64,000 bases of DNA from Acidobacteriota bacterium (GTDB taxonomy: Bacteria; Acidobacteriota; Aminicenantia; JBFLYD01), in the NCBI GenBank assembly GCA_040756905.1, contig JBFLYD010000028.1, positions 10,278-74,277 of the forward strand, written 5' to 3'. The translations under genes and the position numbers were made by a program. Of this stretch, positions 39,592 to 48,928 are shown in pieces (position 1 is the first letter of the stretch; every line of letters begins with the position of its first letter). The notes under the pieces were generated by a model that saw only the letters and a program-made list of their open reading frames with translations, was not told the origin of the DNA and did no database searches.

Positions 39592-40455
39592 TCATATTCC
39601 TTTACTCCTTAATATCTTCATAATTTTTTCAATTTCTGTCGCTTGAGATTCTATGATAGAAAGTAGTTCCTGGAGGCTTCTCCTGTCTTCTTTCTCTTTC
39701 CGATTTGGATTGACCGCCTTGAGGTCGTAATTTTTTGCCTCTATTTCTTCTATTGATACTCGCCAGGAGCGTTCGCTCGTTCCTCTTTCTGGAAGCAGTT
39801 TGAAAAATCCTTCAAAATGTTGAAGTGTGAGTGGTTGCTTTTTGGTTATATTGAGGTCTGATAGATCGTAATACCAGACTTCTTTTGTGGGTTGTCCTTT
39901 TGTAAAAAATAAGAGATTGGTTTTGCTTGCTTCACCTGCATTTACAAAAACCTTTGGTGGAAGACTTATGATGCAGAAGACATTACACTCATTAAGCAAT
40001 TTTCTTTTGATCTGGACAAAGGCATTCTCATTTGTTCTGAATAGAACTCCTTCATCCATGACAATGCCGCATCGACCCCCTGGCTTTAAACTATCAATCA
40101 CATGCTGGAGAAATAGCACCTGGGTTGAGCTGGTCTTATAGGCAAATCGAGTCTGGGCATCTTTTCCTTCCTTGCCGCCAAAAGGAGGATTGGTAAGGAC
40201 CATATCAAAAAGCGCAGGTGCTCCCTGAAAGAGCCCTCCGTAAACTTCGAGCCCAGTAAGGGTGTTTCCATGCCAGATGTGAGGTTCGTCAATATCGTGA
40301 AGAAGGAGATTTGCAAGGGCAATGGGATAGATGAGATTTTCTTTCTCCCGGCCATAGAATGTTCTGGTTTTAAGGGTTTCAATATCATCAGCGGTTTTAC
40401 TTTTTCTTTCATGTGAAGATGTGCCTGAGCAAGGAATCCACCAGTTCCGCAGCAT
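39592..40455 (-). CDS. hsdM: Type I DNA methyltransferase HsdM, 3' part after frameshift
   Basis: The C-terminal part of HsdM in a different frame from its 5' part. Similarity starts at SKTADDIETLKTRTFYGREKE (about 40400); the first ~18 residues of this frame are out-of-frame readthrough. It contains the catalytic NPPFGGKEG motif (motif IV, NPPF), GGRCGIVMDEGVLFR, and PKVFVNAGEASKTNLLFFTKG. The C-terminal coiled coil (EKEDRRSLQELLSIIESQATEIEKIMK) is as in HsdM. Joined to the upstream frame it would give an N6-adenine methylase of about 495 residues. Confidence 0.85.
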   Translation of the reverse strand: MLRNWWIPCSGTSSHERKSKTADDIETLKTRTFYGREKENLIYPIALANLLLHDIDEPHIWHGNTLTGLEVYGGLFQGAPALFDMVLTNPPFGGKEGKDAQTRFAYKTSSTQVLFLQHVIDSLKPGGRCGIVMDEGVLFRTNENAFVQIKRKLLNECNVFCIISLPPKVFVNAGEASKTNLLFFTKGQPTKEVWYYDLSDLNITKKQPLTLQHFEGFFKLLPERGTSERSWRVSIEEIEAKNYDLKAVNPNRKEKEDRRSLQELLSIIESQATEIEKIMKILRSKGI

Positions 40456-41093
40456 GGGTCATAGATCATTTCCCCAACCTCTGGATTTACAACCTTGACT
40501 ATTACACGGATAACTTCCCGTGGTGTAAAAAACTGACCTCCATCGTTATTCTTCTCACCCATCTTGAGAAGTAATCCTTCATAAACCTGGGAGAGAGTAA
40601 ACATATGAGTTTCAACAACATGCTCTAAAGAGAGTTCATGAATTTTATCCAGGATATCAAGAAGATTTCGTTCAGTATCAATTCCAGTCCTTTCAATTGA
40701 GGAAAAGACTTCACTGATAACCTTCTGACGCAGGGTTGCAGATGGCTTATTTTTAAGATTTCGAAGATATGGGATGAGCTCGCCATTGACAAAGGACATA
40801 AATCCACCCAATGTTCCCATTTGAAGTTCCAACCGTTTCCCTCCCTCAGGGTCAGCCCAATCACGCCAGCGATAGGGATACTCCAGGGAAGGCATAAACT
40901 CTACGCCCAATGCTTTCGCTTGTTCCTCCTCTCTCTGCTCATTCTCATCGAGAATTCGTAAGAAGAGCATCCATGTAAGCTCTGGGACATACTGCAAAGC
41001 TCCAGCCCTGCCGGAGCGCCGCATAATGTCACAGATGCCTTTGATATAGGCATTGAGCGATTGCGGGGTTGTGATTTTGTGGTTGTTCTTCAT
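40098..41093 (-). CDS. hsdM: Type I DNA methyltransferase HsdM, 5' part before frameshift
   Basis: The HsdM N-terminal helical domain (SLNAYIKGICDIMRRSG, LTWMLFLRILDENEQREEE) and SAM-binding motif I (YDPCCGTGGFLAQAH), preceded by GGQFFTPREVIRVIV, are intact. After HLHMKEK (about 40405) the frame is lost. One extra A in the five-A run (T run on the given strand, 40401-40405) would restore it into the 3' part. The start follows the ATPase stop by 2 bases. The first ~75 bases are duplicated at 42364-42439. Confidence 0.85.
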   Translation of the reverse strand: MKNNHKITTPQSLNAYIKGICDIMRRSGRAGALQYVPELTWMLFLRILDENEQREEEQAKALGVEFMPSLEYPYRWRDWADPEGGKRLELQMGTLGGFMSFVNGELIPYLRNLKNKPSATLRQKVISEVFSSIERTGIDTERNLLDILDKIHELSLEHVVETHMFTLSQVYEGLLLKMGEKNNDGGQFFTPREVIRVIVKVVNPEVGEMIYDPCCGTGGFLAQAHLHMKEKVKPLMILKPLKPEHSMAGRKKISSIPLPLQISFFTILTNLTSGMETPLLGSKFTEGSFREHLRFLIWSLPILLLAARKEKMPRLDLPIRPAQPRCYFSSM

Positions 41094-41095
41094 TC

Positions 41096-42280
41096 CTACA
41101 GATCCTGAGCTAAAATTGTTCTTGGAAGTTCACTATAGTCTTTTACAATTAAATAGCACTCTTTTATTTTTAAACCTTCGGATATTCTTTTTAGTCTTTT
41201 CAAATCCTGGGGATCGCCTTTAATCTTTATTTCAAAAGCAGTTTTTTTATTTAGAATAAAATCAACCTCAGGACCTCTGTACCTTTCATAATAATTTAAG
41301 CCGCCATATTTTTTAAGATTTTGGAAAACAGCATTTTCAAAAAGTGTTCCCTCCGAAACCCTACCTAAGTAACTCAGGAGCCCATTATCGCAGAAATAGA
41401 CCTTTTTTGCTCCCCTGACCTCTCCATTGATATTCCGAGAAAAAGGACTGATCAGAGATATAAAGTAAGTCTTTTCTAAAAAATTCAGATAAGAATAGAC
41501 CGTCTCACGTGATACCCCTATCTCAGAGGCAATTTTGCTAATCTCGATCTTTGAACTTATGCGATTAGTCAGAAGCAGGATTAAATCCCTGAGTTTGCCT
41601 AATTCCCTAAAATCCGCCAAACTTTTCACGTCCTTTTCAAAATAGGATTTAAAGATATCCTCTAAAACCTGTTTTTTTCTTGTTCTATCCTTCTCTAAGA
41701 CTACTGCTGGAAAACCACCGTATTCTAAATATTCACTGAAGTATTTCTTATAAAGTTCATAGGAAACCCTGTTTTTATTCTCTGCCTTAATTGAGAATCC
41801 ATCGGATGGTTTTTTCTTTTCTTCCTTAAATATCAAGAACTCCTCAAAATCCAAAGGAAAGAGTTCATATATAACCTTTCTGCCTGCCAGAGATTCAGGA
41901 AAGAGGTTTTTTAGATAGAAACTGCTTGAGCCAGTCAGGAAGAATTTAATTTGATAATGGTCATAAAGATATTTAATGGCTTTTACAATCCCCGGGGCAA
42001 CCTGTACCTCATCTAAAAATAAAAAGGATTTTTTACCCAAAGAAAATCCGAACTGTTCCAAGTTGGGAATAATATTGTCAAAATTTACTTCTTCAAATAC
42101 CTTCTGGTTTAAAGGATTTTCTAAATCCAGAAAAATCTTATGAGGGCTTTTAATATTATTAAAAATTTGACGCATAAGGGTAGTCTTTCCCACCTGCCGC
42201 ATCCCTGTTGAGATTACAATCCTCGGTGAGTTCACTTCTTTTGTTAAGGTTTGGGTTAACTTACGGGGATATATTTTCAT
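41096..42280 (-). CDS. DUF4143-family AAA ATPase inserted in the hsdM locus
   Basis: 394 residues. AAA_14 N-terminal domain with Walker A GMRQVGKTTLMR (about 27-38) and Walker B FLFLDEVQ (about 88-95), sensor FFLTGSSSFYLKN, then a winged-helix-like part (ISKIASEIGVSRETVYSYLNFLEKTYFI). The C-terminal DUF4143 region includes a PD-(D/E)xK-like motif (GPEVDFILNKKTAFEIKIK). Cellular role unknown. It lies between a remnant and the intact copy of the hsdM 5' end, has its own strong promoter, and probably has a leaderless message. It is likely a cassette acquired into the RM operon. Confidence 0.9.
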   Translation of the reverse strand: MKIYPRKLTQTLTKEVNSPRIVISTGMRQVGKTTLMRQIFNNIKSPHKIFLDLENPLNQKVFEEVNFDNIIPNLEQFGFSLGKKSFLFLDEVQVAPGIVKAIKYLYDHYQIKFFLTGSSSFYLKNLFPESLAGRKVIYELFPLDFEEFLIFKEEKKKPSDGFSIKAENKNRVSYELYKKYFSEYLEYGGFPAVVLEKDRTRKKQVLEDIFKSYFEKDVKSLADFRELGKLRDLILLLTNRISSKIEISKIASEIGVSRETVYSYLNFLEKTYFISLISPFSRNINGEVRGAKKVYFCDNGLLSYLGRVSEGTLFENAVFQNLKKYGGLNYYERYRGPEVDFILNKKTAFEIKIKGDPQDLKRLKRISEGLKIKECYLIVKDYSELPRTILAQDL

Positions 42281-42286
42281 GTCTGA

Positions 42287-42337
42287 ATTCTAATAGATAT
42301 TTCCAAAATTGTCAAGTATTATTTGACATATTTGGAA
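42287..42337 (-). promoter_or_regulatory. Promoter and palindromic operator of the DUF4143 ATPase, apparently leaderless
   Basis: On the minus strand, TTGACA (42310-42315), a 17-base spacer and TAGAAT (42287-42292). The ATG begins at 42280, exactly where transcription should start, and no ribosome site precedes it. The -35 lies in an imperfect palindrome, 42301-42337 (TTCCAAA..GTCAA..TTGAC..TTTGGAA on either strand), a likely operator. Confidence 0.65.
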
Positions 42338-42363
42338 TAAATTTGTCTGCTGTTTACCACTAT

Positions 42364-42439
42364 GCATAATATCGCAGATGCCCTTGATATAGGCATTGAG
42401 CGATTGCGGGGTTGTGATTTTGCGGTTGTTCTTAGGCAT
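42364..42439 (-). pseudogene. Remnant 5' end of hsdM upstream of the inserted ATPase
   Basis: This frame (MPKNNRKITTPQSLNAYIKG, then ICDIM) matches the start of the downstream hsdM except for four substitutions and one extra codon, then ends at the cassette junction. It starts 4 bases after the OLD-nuclease stop. It therefore marks the original position of hsdM in the operon before insertion. Confidence 0.85.
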
Positions 42440-42443
42440 GGTA

Positions 42444-43916
42444 TTAACCCTCTTCAATTTTCTGTTTTAGTAGCTTATAAACATCAGGGGGACTATTCCC
42501 ATTAAACCAATCCGAGAAAAATGCAAGAGCTTCCGCTTTACTCAGTTTCTTACCTAGCCCAAATATGCCTTCGAGATTAGGAGATTGAAGTAGAACCCTA
42601 TCGCTATCTAAAAACCTTCTCAATTCCTCTATTATTTTGGCTGTTTTTTGATTTGATGGGTCTTCATCAATTAATGCATAAGTCGAGATATTAAACAATT
42701 TTAGTATTTCACTGATTGGCTTAATCGCCGTATTGCTACCACATTCCATTATAGAAACGCTTTCTTTATCCAGTTCCATTCCAAGTTTTTCAAGAGCCAA
42801 CCGACAAGCAATCTTATCGTCGGGTCCCTCAACCAAAACCACATCATTAGCAAAGAATACCTCGTTTACATCCTCGTCAAATTTTGAAGCCATTTTGATT
42901 TCTTCTTCAGACGATACTTGCTTTCCTATCCCTGAATAAACCTTTGTTTCGTTGGATTCTTTTCTAACTAAATGAATACTTTTAAAGTTAGATATATCTA
43001 CAAAAGACCTTTCGTGGGTGGCGTATATAATTTGGACACTGGTTTCGGATAGTCCCTTAAGAAGTTTGTAAAAATGGCGGCATCCATGGGGATGCAGATA
43101 GAGTTCAGGCTCCTCAATTGCCATTAAAAGGGGCTGTCTGACGATTTCTGCATATGCACGGGCAATTGCAACCGCTAAAGCACTTTGGGTCCCAGCCCCC
43201 ATATCCTCAGCATCAAATTCCTTTGACAATGGATCTTCCTGTAGATAAGGTCTGAGGTTCTTAATGGTTTCTATCGGGTCTAGAATTGACAGACGCAGAT
43301 GCAAATCCAAACCTGTTTGTTGCTTAACATGATCCTTTAGAATGTCTTCCATCTGTTGCAAGTCAGGATAGATGTTAGAATTATAAGAAGTTTCGATGCC
43401 TCTTTTGAAATTTTCTTTTTTTGAATCGTCTATTCGTTTTTCGATGTGCCTTAATAATTTGCCATACAATGTCCATTGAGTCGCTCTGATTTGCTGCGAT
43501 GCCTGACGATCAAGCCCTAAGTACATTAAAGCAACTTCATCTTTCATCTCGTTAGAAACTCGGATCTCTCGCCCATATATGGGGTAGGTAAGTACATTGC
43601 CGTTGGCATCAATTGCGAAATACTCACAGTCCTTACCGTCAAAAGTCAACTGAAATCCGTAAACACGAGGATTGCAGGTCAATGGTGAGTCAAATCTGAC
43701 TTCTATTTTAATTGGATTTGATTTATCGTAATTATAGAAGTCTTTTTCGTCAAAGGAACGCACAGATGGATAAATCTCCCCAAGAACTAAATTTAACGCT
43801 TTCATAATGTTTGACTTTCCAGCATTATTTGGACCAATAAAGGCATTCATTAGGCCTAGATCAATCTCTACATTTTTAATAGAACGGAAGTTTTCGACGA
43901 TTAGCTTCTTTATCAC
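42444..43916 (-). CDS. OLD-type ATP-dependent nuclease (AAA ATPase with TOPRIM domain)
   Basis: 490 residues. The ABC-like ATPase N-terminus opens with KLIVENFRSIKNVEIDLG and Walker A GPNNAGKSN (about 28-36). A signature-like region and Walker B LLMAIEEPELYLHPHG (about 265-280) follow, then the H-loop ATHERSF. A C-terminal TOPRIM domain has VVLVEGPDDKIACRLALEKL and the acidic YALIDEDPSN. OLD-family proteins are nucleases active against phage or other DNA. It is embedded between hsdS and hsdM with a 4-base overlap to hsdS, so it belongs to the RM operon. Confidence 0.88.
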   Translation of the reverse strand: MIKKLIVENFRSIKNVEIDLGLMNAFIGPNNAGKSNIMKALNLVLGEIYPSVRSFDEKDFYNYDKSNPIKIEVRFDSPLTCNPRVYGFQLTFDGKDCEYFAIDANGNVLTYPIYGREIRVSNEMKDEVALMYLGLDRQASQQIRATQWTLYGKLLRHIEKRIDDSKKENFKRGIETSYNSNIYPDLQQMEDILKDHVKQQTGLDLHLRLSILDPIETIKNLRPYLQEDPLSKEFDAEDMGAGTQSALAVAIARAYAEIVRQPLLMAIEEPELYLHPHGCRHFYKLLKGLSETSVQIIYATHERSFVDISNFKSIHLVRKESNETKVYSGIGKQVSSEEEIKMASKFDEDVNEVFFANDVVLVEGPDDKIACRLALEKLGMELDKESVSIMECGSNTAIKPISEILKLFNISTYALIDEDPSNQKTAKIIEELRRFLDSDRVLLQSPNLEGIFGLGKKLSKAEALAFFSDWFNGNSPPDVYKLLKQKIEEG

Positions 43917-45175
43917 AACTCCCCCCTAAACGCCTTTCTTAAGATTGCTTGAGGCAAGGCATCCAGTGCGGATTTTTGATTCGAGATTGCAGATTGTAGT
44001 TTTTCAACCTGTGCTAATTTTTCTTTGAGGTCAATGGCGATGCGCTGCTGGGTCTCTATAGGTGGCAAGGGAATCTCTAATATCTGGTATTGTTTAGCAT
44101 TTATATTTGGTTGAGCTACTGTTTTAATTTGTTCCGAAATAAAACTTTTATATTGCTCACTTAACGCAAAATAAAAGAAATATTCAGGCAAAACATAATC
44201 GGGCTTGAGTCTGAATCTAATTAGATAAGAGGCAAAAACCGCTGGTCTTGGCAAGTCAGATTCTTTAACTAAATAAACACGCCCTACAGAACCACTTCTT
44301 GCAATTAAAATGTCGCCGGCAGAAACTTTATATTTTTCAAAAGTTTTTTTATCTGACTCAATGTACTTTAAATCTTGACCTTTAATTTTCCCTTCCTCTG
44401 TAATATCGGTAATGCGAAGATAAATATAATCTTTTACAATATCTACTGCTGTTGCTGTTAAGCCGTATTGGGGATTAGCTGAAAGTACTTCACCCAGCCT
44501 CTTTCTCTCCCACTTCTTTGCCTCTTCGCTTTCGAAGACCTCTCGCAGATATGCGGCGGGGAGGGCTTTGGCTGCCTCAAGTTGCTTTTCGCAGGCAGTT
44601 CGGGCATGCTCCACCTCATGCATCAGTTCTTGAATTTTTGCAGCGATGTGTTCTTGCTCCTCTTTTGTTGGTAGAGGGATAATGTAGTTTGCCAAAAACT
44701 CTTCGGGTACTCTTTGTTGACCTACTGCACCTGTGAAATATCCTGTTGCTTCTTGTAAGAATGAAGGCTGTCGAATATAGAAATGAACCCACTCTGGCAA
44801 CACTTCTTCATTGGGACGCAAAACGTGAAATTCAGTTGTTCCGAAGCCTATCCCATCAATCAGATTTCTTGCAATAACATGCTTTCCGTTCTGCATACGT
44901 GGTGTAATCTTAGCAAAGAGAACGTCATTTTCCTCAAAATAAGTATATCCTTTGGCAACCTTTGAATATGGAACAATCTCTGGTTTGGATATAGTTCCCG
45001 TTTTCTCATCCACAGCAACCATTGGGACAAATGAGGTCGGAGCATTAGGAGAACGATAGAAACTCCTGGGACGAGAAGGATTGATCTTACACACCTCCCC
45101 CAACTTCATCCATCGCCAGCCTGAGGGGGGTTCAGAGTTCAGGGTTTTGAGTTCGGAGTTAATTTTTCGGCTCAT
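43913..45175 (-). CDS. hsdS: Type I restriction-modification specificity subunit HsdS
   Basis: 420 residues with two target-recognition domains in the usual arrangement. TRD1 begins GWRWMKLGEVCKINPSRP (about 19-36) and TRD2 begins KWERKRLGEVLSANPQYG (about 221-238). Each is followed by a conserved helix (EEQEHIAAKIQELMHEVEHA; TQQRIAIDLKEKLAQVEKLQ), giving the internal pseudo-repeat of HsdS. Each TRD reads one half of the bipartite site. The N-terminal 18 residues are an unusual Ser/Glu/Leu extension. The gene follows a tandem-repeat tract. Confidence 0.93.
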   Translation of the reverse strand: MSRKINSELKTLNSEPPSGWRWMKLGEVCKINPSRPRSFYRSPNAPTSFVPMVAVDEKTGTISKPEIVPYSKVAKGYTYFEENDVLFAKITPRMQNGKHVIARNLIDGIGFGTTEFHVLRPNEEVLPEWVHFYIRQPSFLQEATGYFTGAVGQQRVPEEFLANYIIPLPTKEEQEHIAAKIQELMHEVEHARTACEKQLEAAKALPAAYLREVFESEEAKKWERKRLGEVLSANPQYGLTATAVDIVKDYIYLRITDITEEGKIKGQDLKYIESDKKTFEKYKVSAGDILIARSGSVGRVYLVKESDLPRPAVFASYLIRFRLKPDYVLPEYFFYFALSEQYKSFISEQIKTVAQPNINAKQYQILEIPLPPIETQQRIAIDLKEKLAQVEKLQSAISNQKSALDALPQAILRKAFRGEL

Positions 45176-45250
45176 TTTTGGTTCATTACCTAATCATTAC
45201 TTTCATTACCTTTTCATTACCTTTTCATTACTTTTTTATTACCTTCTTTG
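45176..45250 (-). repeat. Short tandem repeats GGTAATGAAAA between regulator and hsdS
   Basis: Read on the minus strand, units of about 11 bases (ggtaatgaaaa, ggtaatgaaaa, ggtaatgaaa, then degenerate gtaatgatta and ggtaatgaac) run from the last codons of the AlbA_2 gene to just before the hsdS start. Each unit contains an ATG. Because the unit is not a multiple of three, slippage would change spacing or frame at this junction. Confidence 0.75.
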
Positions 45251-46583
45251 AAGTATAGATAACATTCTTCCCGGTCCCTTCAACTATAAAAATATCTTTT
45301 TTAACAATTTCTATTAATTCGAGATAAGCAGTCTTATTAGACACTGCATTAAGTTCCTGATACTCTTTATTCGTAATCCTTCTTTTCTCCTTCACATACA
45401 TCACCGCTTTAATCTGCCGCTCGTTTAACCCCATCTTTCTCAAATTTTCCTCTGTATAAATGTCACTGTAGAAATATACCGAAAATCCACCCATTTCTTC
45501 TTTGTATTCTGGCTCTGGGAGTCCAGCTTCTTTCATCCATTCTACCATTCGAACCGTGCCACTGCCATATTGCTCAATCTCACCGGCGAGATAAAATGCC
45601 TTGGCAATCAAGGAGTTGCGCAAAACTGAGCCATGAGGAACTTTGAGCTCCTCGATAGAAATGCCCTCCGGAAGTCCTCCTAAATTAAAAAACCAGATGT
45701 GGTCATCGTAAACTTTAATCTGAATGAAATTGGCGATATTGAAATAATCTCGATGGATAAGAGCATTCAGCACCGCTTCTCTGAGTGCAGGGATCGGATA
45801 ATCCCATATATCTTCCCGCTGCCAATCTTTTATTTCATAGCGGACACTGATGAACTGTTTCAAAACATTGATTGTCTCTTCGAGTTGCTGAAAGAGATTC
45901 CCTTTTGCCCACTTATCATCGATGATTGTAGTTTCAGTTTTTAAACGGCCTACCCGAACGCAAAGATTAATAAAATGTTTCTGAGGGTCTTTTCCGAAAA
46001 GAATGACGGCGCCATTGGTTAGTTTGCCATCGACAATCAAGCCGAGCTTTTCGAGGATGACCAACGGCTGTTCGTCGAGGGAAACTCTGGGCAGTCTATT
46101 CTTTTCAACTGCAAGCCGGACGAATCTTTTTATAGTCTCGATGTCTATCTCTTCATACGAAACATTATTGGTGAGAAGGTCCCATGATTTACCTTTAAGA
46201 AGCAATGCCCTGAGTTTTTCCTGACTCATTTCTCTGGTTGTGTTTCCTATCCGCTCATAATAACGGCCTTCATAAGAGATAGGAAAGCTCGAACGCGCCA
46301 CTATGACGGCTATTATGCGTTTCTCTTCCACGTCTACGGCTTCAATTTCAGGGTAGATTGTTAACTTGTCAATTATTCGATTTGTCATTCTTTCCATGAA
46401 TTCATTTGTGGGGCTTACGCCGACTATTTTCCCTTTATCACCAACGCCAAGAAGGATTATTCCTCCTTTTGTGTTGGAAAAAGCTGAAATGGTTTTGTAA
46501 AAGCCATCAGAAAGCTCCCCTTTAAAATCAAGCGTTAGGGATTCCCCTTTTGATATGAGCTCTTTTATATCCTTTTCATTCAT
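45228..46583 (-). CDS. AlbA_2 (Schlafen-type) domain ATP-binding regulator in RM operon
   Basis: 451 residues. N-terminal AlbA_2 domain: ESLTLDFKGELSDGFYKTI then SAFSNTKGGIILLGVGDKGKIVG (about 13-60). Middle HATPase_c_4 region: PIPALREAVLNALIHRDY, NLGGLPEGIS, GSGTVRMVEWMKEAGLPEPE. C-terminal winged helix: LNERQIKAVMYVKEKRRITNKEYQEL. These are usually annotated as putative DNA-binding transcriptional regulators and recur in type I RM operons. It overlaps hsdR by 4 bases. Regulation of the operon is inferred, not shown. Confidence 0.88.
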   Translation of the reverse strand: MNEKDIKELISKGESLTLDFKGELSDGFYKTISAFSNTKGGIILLGVGDKGKIVGVSPTNEFMERMTNRIIDKLTIYPEIEAVDVEEKRIIAVIVARSSFPISYEGRYYERIGNTTREMSQEKLRALLLKGKSWDLLTNNVSYEEIDIETIKRFVRLAVEKNRLPRVSLDEQPLVILEKLGLIVDGKLTNGAVILFGKDPQKHFINLCVRVGRLKTETTIIDDKWAKGNLFQQLEETINVLKQFISVRYEIKDWQREDIWDYPIPALREAVLNALIHRDYFNIANFIQIKVYDDHIWFFNLGGLPEGISIEELKVPHGSVLRNSLIAKAFYLAGEIEQYGSGTVRMVEWMKEAGLPEPEYKEEMGGFSVYFYSDIYTEENLRKMGLNERQIKAVMYVKEKRRITNKEYQELNAVSNKTAYLELIEIVKKDIFIVEGTGKNVIYTSKKVIKK

Positions 46584-48928
46584 GCAGCAAACAACCTCTC
46601 TTTTGTTTCATTTATAATCTCTTTTGGATCCCCTAACGTTTTTAATGCATCTAGACCACCTGATTTAATTACTTCAGGAGCATTGAATACATAGGGATTT
46701 TCTAACTCTTCTGTTCCACCTTTTTCGAATTGTTTAGCAAGGGCAAGCAGTATTTTTGCAGTTTGCTCAGGTAAACTGTCAAACCAGGATTTATGTTTGT
46801 ATTGGAGTGCCTCCACTCTTTCTTTACGACTCTTCGGAGCCAAACCAAATCCAATCTCTGCTAGCACATCATAGAGGTCATAATCCTTAAGCTGAAGGAG
46901 CTCCTGGAGCAGTTTTAATCCACGCCCATCATCGGGAAGAGCATCTATGAGAGCTCTCCTTTCCTGCGGGCTTATCCAACACTTGCGAAAATTCTCGAAA
47001 GTTTCTGTCTCTTCTACCAGTTTGTCAGCAAGGGTCTGCTTATATTCTTCAACAGTCACCATTGCCAATCTTCCTTCCTTCTGATTAACAATGTATGTTC
47101 CTGCAGGATTCACATGAACATCAAATCCTTCAACGCGGATTATTTTTTCTTTTCTTTCTCCAGGCTCTTTAGGTTCTCGTGTCGGAGAAGGTCTGCTCTT
47201 AAATGCTTTCCCTAAAAGACGAGTAGCATCTGTATAGTCATAGACACGGAACATTAACTTATTGGTGGGAAGGTGTATCCTCGAACCTCTCCCCAGCATT
47301 TGTTGGAAGGCAATCGGGGAACGGACATACTTAAAGAAGAAAACATTTCGAACTATGGGAATATCTACTCCAGTGGTTATAAGATCAACGGTTGTCGCAA
47401 TAAAATGGCTGCGTTCGGATCCTCTAAGGTCTGCAATATATTCGCTTCCTCCAACTGAAGCAGTGCATTTGAAGGCGTAAGGTTCAAGTCTTTTTTGTCC
47501 ATTTTTAGAGCACCATTCTGTGTAAAGATTGTTCATTTCAGTTGCAACAGCATCTGCATGAGTATCACGAACACAGAAAATAACGGTTTTTTGCAGAGGA
47601 CCACTGGTTTGAAGAAGCATATCAAAGAGGTCACTACACATGACTTCCACTCGGTCGGGTAACTGAATAATATCCTCAAATGATGTAGCTTCGTAAATAC
47701 CTCGCGTCTCATGGACAGCCAATGGTTCACCTGTTATGGCATCTGTAGCTCCCCCTGCTTTCTCTATATTCTCTCTTGTTACTCCTCTTAAATCAAGGTT
47801 TACCTGCCGAGCAATAATTTCGCATGGAGGAAGATAACCATCCTCAATCCCCTGAGCCATATCATATTCATAAACAGGCTCACCAAAGTATTGAATATTG
47901 TTAGCGGTTATTTCTTCGTCTCCTCTTCTTTCTTCATCGTTTCCACCTTCCCAGTAGCGCGGGGTTGCAGTAAGACCAATCTGAACTGCATCTGGATTCC
48001 TTTTAAGCACGATGCTCCATTTTCCCCAGGCACTTTTGTGGCATTCATCAATAACAATATGACTGAAATAATTCTCAGGATAATTTTCTAAAAAAAATTT
48101 TGCATCTTCATTTTCTCCTGCTACATTGAGTGTCTGATAAGTTGCTATCAAGATACGTGCATTTTTTTGGGGATTTGATGTTGTAACTTCAGCAGCATCT
48201 GTTCCAAAGACATTTTGAAAAGCAGATAATCCTTGAGTTCTCAGTTCGTCTCTATCGCACACAAATAAAGCACGACGAAGCTGCCCGGCATCTGCGATCT
48301 TTTTTAATATATGAACCGCAATAAAAGTCTTGCCTGAACCTGTAGCTAAAAATAAAAGCACTCTCTTTTTTCCTTGAGCTATTTTTTCAAGGGCAGACCT
48401 GATAGCGGCATCTTGATAATAGCGTCTTGTTGCCTCTCCACTTGGATATGGAACAAGAAGCGGTTTCGTCTCTTCACTCTCCAGGGAAATTCCCAGCCTA
48501 CTTTCATAGCGCTGACGAAGTTCAGAAGGTGTAGGAAATTCTTCAAGTGGTCGTGGCTCAGAAGTTTTACCTGTGAAATTATCGTATTCTATGAACAGAT
48601 GTCCATTAGAAGAATAAACAAAGGGAACATTGTTTAGACGAGCGTATCTCTTTGCTTGCTCAAGACCTCTATCTGGTGGCTCATTGCTTTTTTTCGCTTC
48701 GATCAAGCCAACTGCTATAGGCTGACTATTTATATTAACTCTTGTACGTAAAAGATAATCCATTCGTCCTTGACTTTTTCGGCGCGGTTTACCGTCTATA
48801 ATATCAATGCCAGGAGCTGTTTCTTCCCGACGAATAAGGTCTTCTGTCCATCCCTTCTTGTGAAGAACTGGATCAACAAGCTTTGCTTTTGTATCTGCTT
48901 CGCTTAGAGTAATGCTCAATCCACTCAT
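46580..48928 (-). CDS. hsdR: Type I restriction endonuclease subunit HsdR (EcoEI-like)
   Basis: 782 residues. An N-terminal PD-(D/E)xK nuclease is visible with Asp57 (GRMDYLL) and Glu77-Ala-Lys79 (LIEAKK). Translocase motifs follow: Walker A ATGSGKT (195-201), DECH (294-297), GLTATPRYW, QMLGRGSRIH. A C-terminal EcoEI_R_C-type helical domain ends the protein. It cleaves unmethylated DNA in complex with HsdM2S. It is the first gene of a minus-strand operon divergent from the sigma factor gene. Confidence 0.94.
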   Translation of the reverse strand: MSGLSITLSEADTKAKLVDPVLHKKGWTEDLIRREETAPGIDIIDGKPRRKSQGRMDYLLRTRVNINSQPIAVGLIEAKKSNEPPDRGLEQAKRYARLNNVPFVYSSNGHLFIEYDNFTGKTSEPRPLEEFPTPSELRQRYESRLGISLESEETKPLLVPYPSGEATRRYYQDAAIRSALEKIAQGKKRVLLFLATGSGKTFIAVHILKKIADAGQLRRALFVCDRDELRTQGLSAFQNVFGTDAAEVTTSNPQKNARILIATYQTLNVAGENEDAKFFLENYPENYFSHIVIDECHKSAWGKWSIVLKRNPDAVQIGLTATPRYWEGGNDEERRGDEEITANNIQYFGEPVYEYDMAQGIEDGYLPPCEIIARQVNLDLRGVTRENIEKAGGATDAITGEPLAVHETRGIYEATSFEDIIQLPDRVEVMCSDLFDMLLQTSGPLQKTVIFCVRDTHADAVATEMNNLYTEWCSKNGQKRLEPYAFKCTASVGGSEYIADLRGSERSHFIATTVDLITTGVDIPIVRNVFFFKYVRSPIAFQQMLGRGSRIHLPTNKLMFRVYDYTDATRLLGKAFKSRPSPTREPKEPGERKEKIIRVEGFDVHVNPAGTYIVNQKEGRLAMVTVEEYKQTLADKLVEETETFENFRKCWISPQERRALIDALPDDGRGLKLLQELLQLKDYDLYDVLAEIGFGLAPKSRKERVEALQYKHKSWFDSLPEQTAKILLALAKQFEKGGTEELENPYVFNAPEVIKSGGLDALKTLGDPKEIINETKERLFAA

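Follow-up and report, generated by a model that had tools for sequence, protein, structure and literature searches.

How did the beginning of hsdM come to stand twice in one type I restriction-modification operon, on either side of an ATPase gene that carries its own promoter? The question arises in the window, that is, the whole stretch of 64,000 nucleotides that was analysed, which comes from a 2.56-Mb genome assembly of 69 contigs. The genes concerned lie on the minus strand in the order hsdR, AlbA_2 gene, hsdS, OLD gene, hsdM stub, ATPase gene and hsdM, and the features of the locus are the following.

46580..48928, minus strand: hsdR (EcoEI type), by domain match
45228..46583, minus strand: AlbA_2/Schlafen-domain gene, between hsdS and hsdR, by domain match
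43913..45175, minus strand: hsdS, by domain match
42444..43916, minus strand: OLD-like ATPase/TOPRIM nuclease gene, by domain match
42364..42433, minus strand: upstream repeat copy, 70 nt, taken as original hsdM codons 3-26, with 66/70 identity to 41021-41090
42290..42439, minus strand: hsdM stub ORF of 49 aa, taken as the original hsdM start, from the sequence
42287..42315, minus strand: cassette promoter TTGACA-17-TAGAAT, 11/12, by promoter match
41096..42280, minus strand: ATPase gene, 394 aa, AAA_14 + winged-helix-like + DUF4143 (PD-(D/E)XK-type motif), with PF13173 and PF13635 above cut-off
41091..42363, minus strand: proposed inserted unit between the repeat copies, 1273 bp, one gene and one promoter, from the repeat boundaries
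41021..41090, minus strand: downstream repeat copy, the 5' end of the present hsdM, by sequence comparison
39592..41093, minus strand: hsdM (N6_Mtase, HsdM_N) in two frames, 40098-41093 and 39592-40455, by domain match

An earlier note on this DNA had described an ATPase cassette with its own promoter inside the start of hsdM, with an hsdM 5' end on each side and four substitutions and one codon indel between these ends, and this arrangement is confirmed in the sequence. Indeed, the direct repeat (41021-41090 and 42364-42433) measures 70 nt, is identical at 66 positions with four substitutions and covers hsdM codons 3-26, and the two hsdM beginnings differ just outside it, being ATG-CCT-AAG in the upstream copy and ATG-AAG in the downstream copy. 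The upstream copy forms, as had been proposed, a stub behind the OLD gene: it starts at 42439, 4 nt past the OLD stop, reads into the cassette and stops in the cassette -10 region. The downstream copy likewise provides the clean start that had been claimed for it, with the hsdM start codon at 41093 lying 2 nt past the ATPase stop. The GC content is 34% in the inserted unit and 43% in hsdM. The note was silent on the splitting of hsdM into two frames by a 1-nt frameshift near 40400, relative to homologues, which would make the gene either a pseudogene or the victim of an assembly error; the operon is thus not wholly intact, with hsdR and hsdS intact and hsdM frameshifted.

Across the whole 2.56-Mb genome the 70-mer was found at just these two sites, therefore the repeat is not due to chance, and both chance and plain paralogy were rejected as its origin. 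That the arrangement is an artefact of assembly or of chance is very improbable: the number of contigs and the frameshift in hsdM lend some colour to the idea, but the upstream and downstream flanks match with a BLAST E of ~2e-27, the copies differ at four sites, a divergence that argues against a simple assembly duplication, their own flanks differ, and the same architecture recurs in independent genomes.

The explanation that we consider probable is that a self-contained one-gene unit, consisting of a leaderless promoter and an AAA_14/DUF4143 ATPase-nuclease, entered hsdM at its start, with duplication of some 70 bp of the target, and that units of the same kind are found elsewhere in bacteria and archaea. 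Upon entry into the start of hsdM, the duplication of the target would leave a 5' stub upstream and restore a complete beginning of hsdM immediately after the ATPase stop, so that hsdM could be read from the cassette transcript through translational coupling. We infer that the duplication arose during insertion, by the filling-in of staggered breaks on either side, and the breaks may have been made by the nuclease of the ATPase itself or by the host. The same kind of unit would insert at gene edges within operons of bacteria and archaea, with target duplications that are often long and variable (~34-200 bp).

The earlier note had instead taken the divergence of the two copies as a sign of homologous exchange rather than simple target duplication. 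According to this reading, two type I operons recombined, a resident one with OLD-hsdM and a donor with ATPase-hsdM and its own hsdM start, the two 5' ends would be alleles, and the left junction would lie within the resident hsdM at codon 26. An ATPase-hsdM pair does occur elsewhere. Omnitrophica UBA1562 (L124:24-4721) carries hsdR (71%), hsdS (33%), ATPase (71%) and hsdM (72-77%) in this order, with the ATPase abutting hsdM and with neither OLD nor stub, so that an exchange between operons is possible; the similar identities of ATPase, hsdM and hsdR suggest co-inheritance, and at a further locus (L122) an ATPase directly precedes a ThaI restriction-modification pair. However, the copies in the window differ at only 4 of 70 positions, as against 78% DNA identity over 92 bp between the window hsdM and an hsdM remnant on contig C9 of the same genome, and 52/70 between each copy and hsdM of L124, and the donor must therefore have been a nearly identical allele. 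With L124 as outgroup, two derived changes fall in each copy; since derived changes and outgroup distance are equal in both, an aged duplication fits equally well. Taken by itself, the sequence difference between the copies does not, as we read it, discriminate between duplication and allele exchange, and an aged duplication seems the simpler reading at hsdM because of the allele that exchange would need. Furthermore, hsdM codons 1-2 (ATG-CCT) are replaced downstream, as expected if the cassette end abuts codon 3, and recombination between operons leaves the same kind of duplication at unrelated genes unexplained; importing a matching gene end at each of these targets would be less economical than duplicating it. 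The claim of exchange is thus unsupported by the divergence on which it was based, and we regard it as unlikely. The remnant on C9 (L052:6723-8457) is part of a decayed type I system in which a C-terminal piece of hsdR and 92 bp of the hsdM 5' end survive, with an apparent toxin-antitoxin pair between the two (HTH/DUF4065-like and RelE-like, by eye).

At nine loci, the window included, the repeat beside the ATPase gene is the end of an adjacent gene, of which one full copy of the end is retained.

Window: hsdM start, 70 nt
L137: 5' end of a Ser/Thr-kinase-like gene, 74 bp
L148: 5' end of a 438-aa gene, 138 bp
L177: 5' end of an LhgO-like oxidase gene, 138 bp
L016: 3' end of a gene, 125 bp
L075: 3' end of a gene, 130 bp
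L076: 3' end of an AddB-like gene (by eye), 126 bp
L171: 3' end of a gene, 201 bp
L172: 3' end of a gene, 34 bp

The copies at these target-derived loci are 73% to 97% identical, as would be expected of insertions of differing age, and the 3' end of the L075 target gene is conserved as a single copy in many class members. The repeats at L072 and L082 have the look of duplicated promoters, not of target ends, and both loci were left out of the target-end count.

To gauge how frequent such repeats are, we looked for direct repeats on both sides of a gene within a distance of 400 bp; all remaining ORFs of 280 aa or more in the regions examined served as controls. In the class of the source genome, direct repeats flank 9/30 DUF4143 genes and 3/253 control ORFs, and 2/24 genes of the matched accessory family PF04326. 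Among 80 named GTDB relatives, which belong to many phyla and include archaea, the corresponding counts are 16/83 DUF4143 genes and 10/334 controls, while in the other classes of the phylum 4/26 DUF4143 and 1/25 PF04326 genes have repeats, a difference that is not significant in those classes alone. Upon pooling, 29/139 DUF4143 genes stand against 13/587 control ORFs (p ~3e-13) and against 3/49 PF04326 genes (p=0.025 only); as a measure of target duplication 29/139 is a maximum, since part of the repeats counted resemble duplicated promoters. Around 80% of DUF4143 genes have no flanking direct repeat; none was seen at the other six DUF4143 matches of the source genome, nor at ten plasmid DUF4143 loci examined, which yielded a single 20-bp match only.

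These counts also bear on who performs the insertion. Any acquired gene may land with a long target duplication through host-driven illegitimate insertion, and DUF4143 genes, being often transferred, might show the repeats with their protein uninvolved. Insertion with long, variable target duplication, on the order of 100 bp, is indeed known for restriction-modification genes (PMC3874152, PMC1643837, PMC3031569), among them the Helicobacter pylori genes of Nobusato et al. 2000 as those papers present them. At least one non-ATPase gene behaves alike, at L178:3435-4612, where the flanking repeat is 57 bp of a glycosyltransferase-like start, and target duplication is therefore not exclusive to DUF4143 genes. 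The excess at DUF4143 genes speaks against the protein being a bystander, as the odds of a flanking repeat are ~11x those of ordinary ORFs and ~4x those of PF04326. A host-driven origin is a serious possibility that falls a little short of being probable; it asks what carries out the insertion and can hold alongside the duplication that our favoured explanation includes, so that the confidence placed in the two overlaps.

As for the one-gene unit proposed here, its promoter appears to be a regular component. The cassette -10 ends 6 nt ahead of the ATPase ATG, thus the ATPase mRNA is probably leaderless. Of the ATPase homologues, 46/77 have a strong sigma-70-like promoter no more than 25 nt from the ATG, as compared to 31/518 controls; in 23 of these 46 the distance from the end of the -10 to the ATG is exactly 6 nt, and hence a leaderless mRNA is predicted. 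Judging from this architecture, a promoter-carrying ATPase unit should need little from its surroundings to be expressed. The ATPase stop lies 0-2 nt ahead of the start codon that follows in 8/40 pairs on the same strand, as against 16/339 control pairs (p=0.0016), and the downstream genes are unrelated, including ThaI restriction endonuclease, hsdM, CO-dehydrogenase FAD subunit, enoyl-CoA hydratase, LhgO-like oxidase, glycosyltransferase and others. That the insertion places hsdM under the cassette promoter, as the earlier note held, is plausible, but hsdM may also be reached by read-through from the upstream operon, and the consequence of the promoter for hsdM is uncertain because hsdM is frameshifted.

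Several other contexts were observed. At L122:9472-12938 the ATPase is flanked by purE and by a ThaI-type restriction-modification pair, the ThaI start following the ATPase stop at 0 nt; at L128:106-3103 a related ATPase lies between a cas3-like gene and cas4, with a 4-nt overlap with cas4; and at three loci of Bacteroidales and Chlorobiota (L163, L193, L154) related ATPases lie between a carboxylase-subunit-like gene and enoyl-CoA hydratase, a site that has apparently been long kept or repeatedly used.

DUF4143 ATPases are widespread in prokaryotes and, to our knowledge, have no established function. The window protein belongs to the DUF4143/AAA_14 family, with 110 bits for PF13173 (cut-off 27), 104 bits for PF13635 (cut-off 28.1) and HTH matches in addition. 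It shares with the AAA_14/DUF4143 (COG1373-like) ATPases of the STAND/AAA+ superfamily the domain order, the Walker motifs, the winged helix and a C-terminal PD-(D/E)XK-like motif. In 79 sequences, G31-K32-T33 and D90-E91 (Walker A/B) and R134 are 100% conserved, as are E315, E338, D340, E350 and K352, which make up a PD-(D/E)XK-type constellation, E...D...(E/D)xK, that is a sequence motif only. The AlphaFold2 model (pLDDT 91.6) matches STAND/AAA+ folds with winged helix (Apaf-1, NLRs, Avs, ORC/Cdc6), and upon comparison of the C-terminal domain with known nucleases the best fold matches were AAA+/winged-helix proteins; a PDB sequence search with the ATPase returned no relative. A bolder and rather doubtful proposal casts the DUF4143 ATPase-nucleases as recombinases in their own right, which would define a new class of one-gene mobile elements: they would cut opposite strands of the target at positions separated by tens to hundreds of bases, close to where genes start or end, and insert the promoter-gene unit, with the filled-in duplication keeping whole a target that would then depend on the promoter of the element.

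Known elements offer partial counterparts. The H. pylori restriction-modification insertions share with the present unit the long, variable direct repeats of the target and the lack of a transposase, whereas in the window the insert is a lone ATPase-nuclease with a leaderless promoter, the restriction-modification gene is the target, and the family extends to many phyla and archaea. Classical insertion sequences are likewise small, carry a single gene and occur in unrelated contexts; in contrast, DUF4143 units have no transposase domain, no terminal inverted repeats were seen, and their duplications are variable, from 34 to 200 bp. The window unit in particular, with no transposase domain in the domain search, no inverted repeats at its ends and a 70-nt repeat, is classified neither as an insertion sequence nor as a DNA transposon. 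Homing endonucleases and other elements that restore gene ends are selfish nuclease genes whose insertion leaves the target gene usable. A DUF4143 unit would do the same, but its targets are many and unrelated, with no conserved target sequence identified. The openly accessible literature that was searched yielded no role of DUF4143 in mobility, which suggests that a one-gene mobile unit of this kind is undescribed as such, a novelty that is provisional. If DUF4143 genes are portable units that enter at gene edges and preserve their targets by long duplication, the family would gain a testable role, and the odd stubs and duplicated gene ends beside its members would have a possible explanation. 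Insertion with long target duplication would extend from restriction-modification genes to a single-gene ATPase-nuclease in bacteria and archaea, and operons, defence operons included, would have a route to acquire an internal promoter without gene loss.

Signs of movement were also sought at the level of whole loci. Class-level searches for an empty allele of the window site gave no close enough relative (in G084 and L124 hsdM is intact but divergent), and a class-wide DNA search with the joined flanks of six repeat-flanked loci revealed no contiguous empty site. Comparison of G041 with G028, the closest ATPase in the class, was rejected as a clean insertion, being a gene swap between the same neighbours. 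In Saccharicenans relatives (L055 compared with L094) the two neighbours are the same, but the gene between them is the ATPase at one locus and a different gene at the other, and the ends of both neighbour genes are altered. The site between pxpA and a CRISPR array is occupied by a DUF4143 gene in Thermus thermophilus plasmids (L233, L235) and empty in other strains (L248-L251), and the comparison of occupied and empty sites showed no long duplication at insertion; HB8/HB5018 was rejected as an empty site, as the ATPase has suffered an internal deletion there. The phyla are freely intermixed in the ATPase tree. The same 1302-bp ATPase unit occurs in two different contexts in Thermus plasmids, and units of ~1.39 kb recur in unrelated contexts in Rhizobiaceae plasmids, the ATPase having short flanks in both groups, with no long duplication in either set of cases. 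In Agrobacterium LMG 292 a truncated DUF6428 gene adjoins the ATPase, at a junction that looks like a deletion ending at the left border of the unit.
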